Part shown: positions 1 through 44,629 of the stretch, in pieces
How positions within the stretch are numbered: the stretch's first letter is position 1
How the letters are laid out: the number at the start of each line of letters is the position of its first letter
Origin: Cryobacterium sp. M96
GTDB lineage: Bacteria > Actinomycetota > Actinomycetes > Actinomycetales > Microbacteriaceae
Direction of reading: 5' to 3'
Assembly (NCBI RefSeq): GCF_002929845.1
Contig: NZ_PJJS01000047.1
Location: forward strand, 1-64,000
DNA length: 64,000 bases
Notes under the pieces: model-generated
What the model was told of the DNA's origin: nothing
The model's input: the letters and a program-made list of their open reading frames with translations, nothing else
The model's database searches: none
Made by a program: the position numbers and the translations under genes

Positions 1-66
1 GCCTCGGCGGCCACAAACCAGTGCTCCCCGGCCGGGATTAACCCACGGAAGCAGCAGGAGAGCCAG

Positions 67-85
67 AATCTCCGTCGAATTCGTT
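67..85. repeat. Right arm of the 85-bp inverted-end element (copy 1, half)
   Basis: The sequence is the right arm, AATCTCCGTCGAATTCGTT, of a family seen complete three more times in this window. A left arm would be expected near position 1 but is absent there, so this copy is solitary, longer than the others, or its left end lies outside the window. It sits about 85 bp beyond the stop codon of the winged-helix gene. I see no gene in positions 1-168. Confidence 0.75.
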
Positions 86-14426: not shown

Positions 14427-15431
14427 GTGAATCTCAACGAGCTCTCCATTCTGAGCCTCTACTCGGCCATGGCGGTCTACGCCCTCGCGTTCATCGCCTT
14501 TTCCTTCGACCTGGCCAAGCGCTCCGCGGCGGTCACCTCCGCCACGGCGGCAGACGCACAGGTGCGCCGGGCCGCATCAGCGCGCGCGGAAGCGGCCGGC
14601 GCGGCGGGCGGAACCACCACCCTCACCCGCATCAGCGCTCGCATCGCGAACGACGCGGTCACCCCCTACGGCCGCTCGGCCAGCCTGCGGGTGGGCGTCT
14701 CGCTCACCGTGCTGGCGTGGCTGATCCACCTGGTGTCGGCGGTGCTCCGCGGCGTGGCCGCCGAGCGCGTCCCGTGGGCGAACATGTACGAGTTCGCGAT
14801 GACGGGCACCCTGCTGATCGTCTCGGTGTTCCTGATTGTGCTGACCCGCGCCGACCTGCGCTTCCTCGGCACCTTCGTCACCGGCATGGTGCTGGTGCTT
14901 CTCGGCATCGCGGCGCTGCGCTTCTACGTCGAGGTCGCGCCCCTGCCGCCGGCCCTGCAGTCGGCTTGGTTGGTCATTCACGTCTTCGTCGCCTCGCTGG
15001 GCACGGGCTTCTTCGCACTCGGTTTCGCCCTCTCGACCGTGCAACTCCTCCAGTTCCGGCGTGAGTCGCTCCTCGCGTCCGCGAAGAGCGGTCGGCTGCG
15101 GTTCCTGGCCACCCTGCCGTCGGCGGCCACGCTGGAGAACCTGGCCTATCGGGTCACCATCATCGGCTTCATCCTGTGGACCTTCACCCTCATGGCCGGC
15201 TCGATCTGGGCCGAACAGGCCTGGGGCCGCTACTGGGGCTGGGATACCAAGGAGGTCTGGACGTTCATCATCTGGACCCTCTACGCGGGCTACATCCACG
15301 CCCGCGCGACCCGTGGCTGGCGCGGATCACGGTCCGCCTGGTTGTCGATCATCGGCTTCGCCGCCGTCATGTTCAACTTCGGCATCGTCAACGTCTTCTT
15401 CAAGGGCCTGCACTCCTACTCCGGCCTCTAG
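14427..15431 (+). CDS. ccsB: c-type cytochrome biogenesis protein CcsB (CcmC/CcsA family)
   Basis: The haem-handling partner of ResB. The 334-residue protein has about eight helices and the tryptophan-rich WWD-type signature WGWDTKEVW at about residues 270-280, which positions haem on the outer face. Last gene of the unit; a copy of the inverted-end element begins 20 bp after the stop. Confidence 0.95.
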   Translation: MNLNELSILSLYSAMAVYALAFIAFSFDLAKRSAAVTSATAADAQVRRAASARAEAAGAAGGTTTLTRISARIANDAVTPYGRSASLRVGVSLTVLAWLIHLVSAVLRGVAAERVPWANMYEFAMTGTLLIVSVFLIVLTRADLRFLGTFVTGMVLVLLGIAALRFYVEVAPLPPALQSAWLVIHVFVASLGTGFFALGFALSTVQLLQFRRESLLASAKSGRLRFLATLPSAATLENLAYRVTIIGFILWTFTLMAGSIWAEQAWGRYWGWDTKEVWTFIIWTLYAGYIHARATRGWRGSRSAWLSIIGFAAVMFNFGIVNVFFKGLHSYSGL

Positions 15432-15450: not shown

Positions 15451-15535
15451 AACGAATTCGACGGAGATTTCGGCCGGATCGCCGCCAAACAGGCCGAAAA
15501 CCCTCTTCTTGCGCAGAATCTCCGTCGAATTGGTT
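15451..15535. repeat. 85-bp inverted-end intergenic element, copy 2
   Basis: Left arm AACGAATTCGACGGAGATT (15451-15469) and right arm AATCTCCGTCGAATTGGTT (15517-15535), pairing over 19 positions with one mismatch around a 47-nt interior. It fills the space between the convergent ccsB and menC and its right end touches the menC stop codon. Confidence 0.9.
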
Positions 15536-36703: not shown

Positions 36704-37573
36704 GTGCCTTCACTCATCGCAATCCTTGCCTCGCTGGCCGTTGCCGGCGGGTTCGCGGTCCTGGTCGGCATCCTCGTCGGCGGTCGCGCCGCCAAGCCGA
36801 TCACCGACCTCGGGGATGCAGGTCTAAACCTCGTCGGGACGACCGCAGCGCGCGTCAGACGGGGTCGAACGATGCGCGAACTGGCCCCCCGCGGGTACCT
36901 CGGGATGCTCGACCGCAGGCTGGCGCTCGCCGGTCGGCCCCCGGCCTGGACCATCGACAAGATCCTCATCGCCAAGCCGCTCGCGGGCACCGCCGGTGCG
37001 CTCCTGGCGCTCCTGTGGATCAGCGGGGACCCGGTCCCGACGCGATTCGTGCTCGGTGCGCTCCTTGTGGTTCTGTGCTTCTTCGTGCCCGACCTTCTCC
37101 TGATCAGCCGCGGGCAGGAGCGACAAGAGAAGATCCAGAACGCCCTGGCCGACACCCTTGACCAGATGACGATCGCCGTGGAGGCCGGCCTCGGCTTCGA
37201 GGCCGCCATGGCCAAGGCGGCGACGAACGGCAAGGGGCCGCTCGCGGAGGAATTCATCCGCACCCTGCAGGACATGAGCATCGGCCGCACCCGAACGCAC
37301 GCCTATCAGGCGCTCGGCGACCGCACCTCGTCATCGGACCTGCGCCGGTTCACCCGGTCGGTCATCCAGGCCGACACCTACGGCATCGCGATCGCGGACG
37401 TGCTCCGGGTGCAGGCCGGGGAAATGCGCCTGCGCCGCCGTCAGCGCGCCGAAGAGAAGGCGATGAAGATCCCGGTCAAGGTGCTCTTCCCACTCATCTT
37501 CTGCATTCTGCCGGTGCTGTTCATCGTGCTACTCACCCCAGCCGTGCTGAGCATGATCGAAGCGTTCTCCTGA
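36704..37573 (+). CDS. tadC: TadC-like inner-membrane platform protein
   Basis: The second F-domain protein, 289 residues, with NALADTLDQMTIAVEAGLGF and paired helices at both ends of the F domain (LFPLIFCILPVLFIVLLTPAV near the C-terminus). Last gene of the operon; copy 3 of the inverted-end element starts 27 bp after its stop. Confidence 0.94.
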   Translation: MPSLIAILASLAVAGGFAVLVGILVGGRAAKPITDLGDAGLNLVGTTAARVRRGRTMRELAPRGYLGMLDRRLALAGRPPAWTIDKILIAKPLAGTAGALLALLWISGDPVPTRFVLGALLVVLCFFVPDLLLISRGQERQEKIQNALADTLDQMTIAVEAGLGFEAAMAKAATNGKGPLAEEFIRTLQDMSIGRTRTHAYQALGDRTSSSDLRRFTRSVIQADTYGIAIADVLRVQAGEMRLRRRQRAEEKAMKIPVKVLFPLIFCILPVLFIVLLTPAVLSMIEAFS

Positions 37574-37599: not shown

Positions 37600-37684
37600 A
37601 ACGAATTCGACGGAGATTCTGCTGTAAAAACACGCTTTGAGGCACTTCCGCGGCGAAATCGGCAAAATCTCCGTCGAATTGGTG
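37600..37684. repeat. 85-bp inverted-end intergenic element, copy 3
   Basis: Left arm AACGAATTCGACGGAGATT (37600-37618) and right arm AATCTCCGTCGAATTGGTG (37666-37684). Interior sequence is different from the other copies. It lies between convergent tadC and yajQ. Confidence 0.9.
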
Positions 37685-42852: not shown

Positions 42853-42936
42853 AACGAATTCGACGGAGATTTTGCTCTAGAACTGGGTTTTGAGCTCTAA
42901 ACCGGCCGTTTCGGGCAGAATCTCGTCGAATTCGTT
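42853..42936. repeat. 84-bp inverted-end intergenic element, copy 4
   Basis: Left arm AACGAATTCGACGGAGATT (42853-42871); right arm AATCTCGTCGAATTCGTT (42919-42936) lacks one C of the consensus. Interior again unrelated. It lies beyond the 3' end of the alpha-glucosidase gene, between two genes in tandem. Confidence 0.88.
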
Positions 42937-42961: not shown

Positions 42962-44629
42962 CTAGGCGCGCAGCCAGACGGTGGTGTCGCCGGGGAGCGT
43001 GTTGCCGGGCAGCGGGCCGCTGGCGAGGAGGAGTTCGCCGGCAGGCAGAGGCACGGATGCCGCGCCCGTGTTCGCGACGACCGTCACCGCGCCGTTGCGC
43101 AGCGCCACGATCTCGTCAGCGTGGCCGTCCAACCACTCCACCGAGCCCAGCCCGAGGGCGTGCTCCCGGCGCAGGCCCAGGGCCAGCGTGTACAACTCGA
43201 GGGTGGAGCCGGCGACGCCGACCTGCGCGTCGCGGGCGAGGCCCGCCCACTCGTCCGGCTGCGGCAGCCAGCTCTCGGCCGAGGGGCCGAAGCCGTAGGA
43301 GGGAGCGGCGGCTTCCCAGGGGAGCGGCACGCGGCATCCGTCACGGCCGTAGCGCTCTCCGTTGGTGCGAAACCAGGTGGGGTCTTCGCGTGCGGAGTCG
43401 GGCAGGTGGATGACCTCGGGTAGACCCAGTTCCTCGCCCTGGTAGAGGTAGCTGGAGCCGGGCAGTGCGAGCATGAGCGCCGAGGCGGCCCGGGCCCGGT
43501 GCAGGCCGATCACGCTGTCGGGCAGGTCGGGCGTCGTCGGCCCGATACCGTGGCCCTGCAGGTTCTCGTGGTTGAGCGCGAGCCGGGAGGCGTGGCGCAC
43601 GACGTCGTGGTTGGAGAGCACCCAGGTGCTCGGGGCACCAACTGCGCCGAACGCAGCGAGGGAATCGTCGATGACGCGGCGGAGGGCCGGGCCGGCCCAA
43701 GCCGTCTCGAGGTAGGCGAAGTTGAAGGCCTGGTGCATCTCGTCGGGGCGCACCCACTCGGCGACGTGGCTGAGCGGATCGACCCAGGCCTCGGCCGCGA
43801 GGATGCGGTCGCCCGGGTACTCGTCGAGGATGAGGCGCCAGTCGCGGTAGATCTCGTGTACACCGTTCTGGGCCCAGTAGGGCGCGGTTTCGGGCCACTC
43901 GGTGATGATGCCTGACCCCTCCGTCGAGGCACCGCCCATGCTGCCGCCCGCGACCGGAGGCGTGTAGTCGGGAAGACCGGTCGCTTTGATCATGCCGTGC
44001 GCGACGTCCACCCGAAAACCGTCCGCCCCGCGGTCGAGCCAGAACCGGAGCACATCGCGGAATTGCGCCTTCACCCATTCGTTGTCCCAGTCGAAGTCGG
44101 GTTGTGTGGTGTCGAAGAGGTGCAGGTACCACTGGCCGGGAGTGCCGTCCGGGTTCGTGACGCGGGTCCAGGCATTGCCGCCGAAGACGGAATCCCAGTT
44201 GTTCGGGGGAAGGTCGCCGTGTTCGCCCTGGCCATCACGGAAGATGTAATGCGCGCGCTCCTCACTGCCCTCGGCGGCGGCGAGGGCAGCTTTGAACCAC
44301 GGATGCTCACTTGAGGAGTGGTTTGGCACAAGGTCAACGATCACGCGGATGCCCAGCTCGTGTGCCGTGTGCTGCAGGGTGTCGAAGTCATCGAGCGTGC
44401 CGAAGAGAGGGTCGACATCGCAATAATCGGCCACGTCGTAACCAGCGTCGTTCTGCGGTGACGTGTAGAACGGCGAGAGCCAGATGGCGTCTATCCCGAG
44501 AGCCCGGAGAGCAGGGAGACGATTGGTGATGCCGATTAGATCGCCCATCCCGTCACCGTTGGCGTCCGCAAAGGACCGAGGATAGATCTGATAGATAACT
44601 GCGGTTCGCCACCACTCTGAGCCTGTCAT
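42962..44629 (-). CDS. GH13 alpha-glucosidase (oligo-1,6-glucosidase type)
   Basis: A 555-residue cytosolic GH13 enzyme that releases glucose from imported malto-oligosaccharides. Conserved regions: DLVPNHSS, GFRVDVAHGM (nucleophile D208), ILAAEAW (acid/base E280) and LSNHDVVRH (transition-state Asp near 343). Calcium-site-like DANGDGMGDL near residue 22 fits the oligo-1,6-glucosidase group. It is divergent from malE and shares its LacI-operator region. Confidence 0.94.
   Translation of the reverse strand: MTGSEWWRTAVIYQIYPRSFADANGDGMGDLIGITNRLPALRALGIDAIWLSPFYTSPQNDAGYDVADYCDVDPLFGTLDDFDTLQHTAHELGIRVIVDLVPNHSSSEHPWFKAALAAAEGSEERAHYIFRDGQGEHGDLPPNNWDSVFGGNAWTRVTNPDGTPGQWYLHLFDTTQPDFDWDNEWVKAQFRDVLRFWLDRGADGFRVDVAHGMIKATGLPDYTPPVAGGSMGGASTEGSGIITEWPETAPYWAQNGVHEIYRDWRLILDEYPGDRILAAEAWVDPLSHVAEWVRPDEMHQAFNFAYLETAWAGPALRRVIDDSLAAFGAVGAPSTWVLSNHDVVRHASRLALNHENLQGHGIGPTTPDLPDSVIGLHRARAASALMLALPGSSYLYQGEELGLPEVIHLPDSAREDPTWFRTNGERYGRDGCRVPLPWEAAAPSYGFGPSAESWLPQPDEWAGLARDAQVGVAGSTLELYTLALGLRREHALGLGSVEWLDGHADEIVALRNGAVTVVANTGAASVPLPAGELLLASGPLPGNTLPGDTTVWLRA

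Follow-up and report, generated by a model that had tools for sequence, protein, structure and literature searches.

A dispersed intergenic element of Cryobacterium with inverted arms at a fixed distance and a helically phased spacer at gene 3' ends

The 64,000-nucleotide stretch of Cryobacterium sp. M96 analysed here (the window) carries copies of an element with two inverted arms at a fixed distance and a spacer of drifting sequence and constant 10-bp AT/GC rhythm; the M96 genome carries about 150 such elements. We consider it somewhat probable (roughly 55%) that the element is a two-arm protein site, acting at the DNA level at gene 3' ends, whose phased spacer is bent or wrapped. The initial annotation of the window had noticed the family, and its observation is true and larger than first described.

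Anatomy, copy number and placement

A search of the window with the arm AACGAATTCGACGGAGATT, allowing up to three mismatches, gave six matches against 0.01 expected, which bears out the 19-bp inverted ends described initially. The three complete copies and one half copy of the initial annotation are all real, the half copy at 67-85 belonging to an element that an insertion sequence has interrupted. The copy at 42,853-42,936 measures 84 bp because its right arm, which reads AATCTC-GTCG, lacks one base pair; the arm search hence missed this arm. In the ORF list a stop codon adjoins all four copies, as had been claimed, and the convergent placement at 15.4 and 37.6 kb likewise agrees with it. The features of the window are as follows.

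1-64, no strand assigned: terminal part of an insertion sequence, inside which the contig begins; assigned to ISL3 through a similar end and a transposase piece in locus L256
65-85, no strand assigned: right half of a split element; 65-72 (AGAATCTC) is a putative 8-bp target duplication
67-85, minus strand: arm match
15451-15535, no strand assigned: complete element between convergent ORFs with stops ending at 15431 and 15535
15451-15469 and 15517-15535: arms of this element, with a 47-bp spacer separating the 15-bp arm cores; arm matches at 15451 (plus) and 15517 (minus)
37600-37684, no strand assigned: complete element between convergent ORFs with stops at 37573 and 37700; arm matches at 37600 (plus) and 37666 (minus)
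42853-42936, no strand assigned: element with the right-arm deletion, just past the stop of the minus-strand ORF 42962-44629 in a tandem context; arm match at 42853 (plus)

Rfam, at the gathering score, matched three tRNAs and nothing else in the window, with no match at the element.

The M96 genome (3.30 Mb in 54 contigs) contains 306 matches to the 15-bp arm core AATTCGACGGAGATT at up to two mismatches, with none for the reversed control, and 94 exact arm pairs, again with none for the control; this exceeds the minimum of about ten genome copies that the initial annotation had set. When GTDB genomes were scanned for the exact pair, all 80 loci among the matches listed (80 of 93) belonged to Cryobacterium, including the species shii, sinapicolor, breve, cheniae, cryoconiti, fucosi, algoricola and algoritolerans. 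Among 57 Cryobacterium genomes (M96 and 56 relatives of the same genus), 18 have at least ten arm matches at up to one mismatch, 11 have one to nine and 28 have none. At the same threshold, 34 of the 149 genomes surveyed have matches, those outside Cryobacterium being G060, with 10, and G070, G080, G091 and G143, with one each. The exact arm pair was absent from IMG/VR, blastn of a single copy matched nothing in plasmids or phages, and among the matches listed by a literature search no such element was described for Cryobacterium or Microbacteriaceae. Two genomes that are near relatives of M96 at the sites compared, G042 and G008, have 40 and 49 arm matches, respectively, against 296 in M96 (up to one mismatch). 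Such patchy copy numbers, including these low counts, show that the elements are dispensable, and they count against the two-arm protein site. Coordinated decay in G042 and G008 after the loss of a factor was considered and is not claimed; at least 26 of the 40 arm matches in G042 are exact.

We pooled 176 distinct copies from the loci, four of them attributed to G060 by a changed arm base. The arm cores are separated by 47 bp in 158 copies, by 48 bp in 11, by 49 bp in four, and by 43, 44 and 54 bp in one each. In inverted orientation, the arm consensus is CC[G/T]AAC[G/C]AATTCGACGGAGATT[T/C]TG, the conserved end thus reaching CC[G/T]AAC[G/C] outside the core and [T/C]TG inside it, and the GGAG and CTCC boxes lie 53 bp apart in the main family (family A). 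An outer T allows the element itself to provide a TAA stop codon. The median distance to a stop codon is 41 bp, and 17 of 183 such distances place the stop at or in the element edge.

Gene calls from a purpose-written codon-usage script allowed us to classify 139 of the 176 copies, namely Cryobacterium copies with two called neighbours, the remainder being too close to the end of a locus or in loci added later. Placement is not random, in keeping with the initial annotation: 59 copies are convergent, 70 tandem and 10 divergent, against 34, 156 and 109, respectively, among the 299 gaps of these loci that contain no element and measure 90 bp or more (odds ratios of 5.7 for convergent and 0.14 for divergent gaps). 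Seven copies extend more than 30 bp into a called gene. The 11 copies classified in G060 divide into four convergent, six tandem and one divergent.

Spacer rhythm, pairing and change at orthologous sites

The interiors, described initially as unrelated, in fact have in common an exact length and a 10-bp AT/GC rhythm locked to the centre. In the profiles of AT content, the first of them drawn from the 45 of 49 cores of length 77, AT peaks fall at core positions of about 15, 24, 34, 44, 54 and 63, and a cosine fit about the dyad gave a best period of 10.1 bp (r 0.94). For 94 non-redundant interiors, drawn from the 139 of length 47 (148 cores), the phasing power reached a z of about 48 over within-sequence shuffles, and a circular-shift test of 158 interiors yielded 7.55 against 0.52 for the controls (maximum 1.47 of 300). 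The phasing recurs in each group, with z values of 29 for 35 M96 copies, 49 for 101 copies in loci of named relatives and 19 for 22 copies of other genomes. A-runs and T-runs are interchangeable at the AT peaks, and the predicted curvature of the 94 copies is 55, versus 26 for shuffled interiors.

Substitutions were counted in 30 of 35 orthologous pairs, kept for an interior identity of at least 0.5, which inflates identity. At the AT peaks, 37 exchanges are W-to-W versus 146 W-S; the flanks, taken from 27 of these locus pairs, have 99 versus 1788. Per W site, about 34% of changes at peaks stay W, versus 10% in flanks, a ratio that is indicative since the base compositions differ. The comparison of peak and flank substitutions indicates selection on the AT rhythm. 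A weak oriented interior consensus can also be fitted (with no null), random oriented pairs being 45% identical; a shared ancestral interior may thus account for part of the phasing, and such a remnant would count against the two-arm protein site.

RNA pairing leaves little trace in these changes. In the 23 interior mirror pairs, pairing relative to the column expectation ranges from z -2.9 to +2.1 and is mostly below it. At 63 arm positions departing from the consensus, pairing is kept in eight and lost in 55, and seven of the eight match fixed variants of G060 (AATTCGAAGGAG) and G003 (CATTCGACGG). The outer C/G base is unlike between the two arms in 110 of 167 copies, versus 81.4 expected and a maximum of 100 in 2000 permutations, and unlike bases would be mispaired in a hairpin. 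An RNA hairpin as the selected feature was rejected for lack of compensation, and the transcript-end structure offered by the initial annotation is disfavoured as a conserved feature, since pairing is mostly lost when arms or interior change. Together with the exchange of A- and T-runs, the absence of compensatory pairing in interior and arms makes the conserved quantity look like DNA shape, not RNA structure.

Orthologs chosen by their flanks (five M96 sites, 11 comparisons) depart from the arm consensus at 12 of 330 positions (3.6%, counting elements with up to seven arm mismatches and leaving out apparent remnants in G008), while their interiors differ from the M96 copy at 191 of 517 (37%). 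Six of the 11 interiors are 0.60-0.85 identical to the M96 copy, which supports descent in place, and five, at 0.45-0.55, are hardly closer than random interior pairs (mean 0.45, sd 0.09), so that descent in place is unsupported there. An arm difference of 9/900 over the 30 orthologous pairs was set aside as biased, most of these loci having been fetched by exact arms; the comparison of sites chosen by flanks takes its place as the fairer one. The 15.4- and 42.8-kb sites were followed in 30 loci each (M96 included) of the 57 genomes, and the 37.6- and 103.8-kb sites in 14 genomes picked as element carriers. The element is missing at many orthologous sites in relatives; at the 37.6-kb site of G042, for instance, the genes meet tail to tail without it. 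By eye, G008 has apparent element remnants at two sites, and three element-less orthologous places presented no clean empty site. The most similar pair of M96 copies (98%) lies inside a duplicated segment, with a right flank 94% identical over 593 bp, and the next most similar pairs reach up to 0.74. Interior subfamilies as a sign of copying were therefore dropped, the 98% pair being a segmental duplication.

Other species have unrelated inverted repeats at the same gene ends; this would be compatible with a general role of hairpins there as well and counts against the protein site. Loci L168, L170 and L181 have GAATGCAGGATGC-armed inverted repeats with about 40 GC-rich interior bases at the site orthologous to 42.8 kb of the window. 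Five element-free Cryobacterium genomes (L220-L239, 80 kb each) contain other, mostly short-loop palindromes, such as GGCGCCGCTACGCGGGTGG in G007 and CGCGAGCCGTGAG in G023, and one inverted repeat in G021 (L227:12750-12824) has 16-bp arms TAACTCCTGCAATTTC and a 43-bp spacer.

Related families and insertion sequences at the arms

Elements with related arms AATTCGAAGGAGA and a total length of 78-79 occur in G060, from another genus of the same family (25 forward and 30 reverse rows). They gave no 10-bp phasing (z 1.4, from the eight of 10 listed copies that are 79 bp long), which counts against the phased-spacer reading. A near-exact pattern scan found matches in five of 398 genomes of the family and in two of 85 genera. 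A further family, B, in Cryobacterium G044, G033 and G026, has arms AATTCAGGAGTTG and a total length of 73-75; we took 15 copies of 73-75 bp and omitted three of 74 bp (one from G033, two from G054). All 10 listed 73-bp copies of family B are phased about the dyad with a period of 10.1 (z 14.6), and their GGAG-to-CTCC distance, counted from the sequences, is 53 bp, equal to that of family A. That both the spacing and the phasing recur where the arms differ is our strongest argument for geometry as the property under selection. Family C (G040, G044 and G033) has arms AATTCAGGAGAT, a total length of 83-85 and, by eye, often a GGACCAGTG box at its centre, which may be a third binding site.

The half copy at the window start has an intact counterpart in G012 (L240:8328), directly preceding sequence that can be aligned with the window from 169 onward (88.6% over 1339 bp). 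Seven similar insertion-sequence junctions were found among the loci, all of which had been fetched for carrying elements.

Window 1-72: junction with the insertion-sequence end
L256:10929-11802: junction with a similar end
L001, L005, L008, L011 and L075: further junctions with a similar end

Six of the seven junctions are at the same arm position, L008 being the exception, and in six a putative 8-bp duplication reads GAGATTTT or GAGATTCT. The arm thus seems to be a favoured target of an insertion sequence, which is placed in the ISL3 family by a piece of its transposase in L256 with matches to the helix-turn-helix and zinc-ribbon families of ISL3. Its insertion accounts for the half copy and for several contig ends. 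At L004:1501-1606, another insertion, presumably IS481-like, abuts CTAG within an element interior and includes a 30-aa piece without a Pfam match. Two G008 elements (L037:1-140 and L218:2054-2191) are interrupted at different interior places by a sequence beginning TGGGGTGACCC.

Protein site and competing explanations

Among the three roles suggested in the initial annotation, the 47-bp spacing, the 10.1-bp phasing and the lack of pairing compensation best match a protein that binds both arms at a set helical distance. We infer a trans-acting protein that would read each inverted arm by its sequence, the arm cores being kept 47 bp and the GGAG/CTCC boxes 53 bp apart. The spacer would be selected for helically phased AT/GC and thus be bendable or wrappable between the two bound arms; its period of less than 10.5 bp would be closer to left-handed (nucleosome-like) wrapping than to gyrase wrapping. 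The element would probably serve as a roadblock or as a topological element acting locally where transcription units adjoin, convergent ones above all. A wider proposal is more tentative and, in our judgement, rather doubtful: a superfamily of sequence-encoded DNA-wrapping sites in some of the Actinobacteria, with AATTC(GAC/A)GGAG arms at a fixed distance and a drifting spacer selected for a nucleosome-like 10-bp rhythm, whose protein would make marked gene ends, above all convergent ones, into small wrapped insulating particles.

The main rival, which we hold to be rather unlikely, is a purely selfish MITE- or REPIN-like element, copied by a transposase; the arms would then be conserved because copying requires intact ends, gene ends would be the sites where insertions are tolerated, and the 10-bp rhythm would help the transposase in synapsis. 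Dispersed copies and patchy copy number favour it, as does the architecture that the element has in common with REPINs and REP doublets, which, in the excerpts consulted, likewise combine inverted ends with a fixed spacing (PMC3116915). These too are dispersed and extragenic, with a pair of conserved ends around a spacer that is constant in length and less conserved in sequence (71 bp between the first residues of the ends in Pseudomonas GI REPINs). The initial suggestion of a REP-like unit mobilised by the host's own transposase finds support in the architecture alone: PF01797 (RAYT, Y1 transposase) matched none of the 57 Cryobacterium genomes at E 0.001, versus five of 14 control genomes, and no target duplication was detected in 175 copies (offsets 0-15, k 2-9), the strongest signals (four copies with four matching bases at offset 0 and five copies with two at offset 1) lying inside the conserved end. 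The element is thus not a REPIN in the strict sense, and a RAYT-mobilised REPIN was rejected on the PF01797 result. Moreover, a REPIN spacer is by definition a hairpin with compensatory changes, according to the excerpted text (PMC3116915), whereas the spacer here is non-compensatory and helically phased, and the arm consensus has, by eye, GGAG inward of a CGAATTCG palindrome and no GTAG of the kind that tags REPs beside a small hairpin. MITEs are also short and dispersed with terminal inverted repeats, but the element has no detected target duplication, probably does not keep its interior sequence, and no transposase with matching ends was seen. Selfish copying is further opposed by arms that are far less divergent than flank-matched interiors, by the 98% pair, which as a duplicated segment is no proof of element-only copying, and by the unpaired arms listed, which revealed no autonomous element. 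CGTC-tagged REPs resemble it in their inverted dimers and similar spacer length, and its right arm has CGTC; unlike them, as far as the excerpts describe them, it lacks, by eye, the 8-9 bp stem, the 4-5 nt loop and the CCA-like tail, and family B arms lack CGTC. The consulted text on these REPs mentions REP-like repeats of M. tuberculosis, and the word Actinobacteria is absent from it. These comparisons draw on parts of PMC3733652, PMC3116915, PMC6379681 and PMC7381226.

Two further explanations seem improbable to us. A strong DNA gyrase (topoisomerase) site, BIME-2-like, would handle supercoils between convergent genes, at whose ends the elements are enriched; in the excerpted account (PMC6379681), the gyrase motif of E. 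coli is degenerate and 130 bp long, with two 47-bp flanks of periodic GC content (period 10.75 bp) around a cleavage centre, and cleavage is over-represented in BIME-2. The element is likewise intergenic and GC-periodic over about 47 bp, and beyond its arms a weak signal is seen at 10.75-11 bp (0.75 vs 0.25, sd 0.13); gyrase stays a rival since its periodic flanks are also 47 bp. The element period is 10.1 rather than 10.75 bp, however, and a single central block lies between two specific 19-bp arms instead of two flanks around a centre, with weak signal outside. We also give little credence to a bidirectional terminator or mRNA 3'-end hairpin, in which the arms would pair in RNA around a neutral loop. 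The position at gene 3' ends, five copies with stable predicted hairpins (z -4.0 to -7.1) and hairpin-type repeats at the same sites in several other species agree with it; against it are the near absence of compensatory changes in arms and spacer, which leaves no sign of selected RNA pairing, the outer position mispaired above chance, and the strand-neutral spacer rhythm. A terminator scan of 28-47 kb gave nine sites against 9.6 in shuffles, none an element, and could not have listed elements as its loops were limited to 3-8 bases.

Among the dispersed repeats of bacteria it is unusual to see ends, length and DNA rhythm preserved and the sequence of the spacer left to drift; REPINs, as far as the excerpts describe those compared, keep hairpins, unlike this element. 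If a protein wraps the elements, each genome would offer some 150 natural replicates of a bending code under selection, together with a direct way of studying gene-end insulation in actinobacteria without RAYT-driven REPs.
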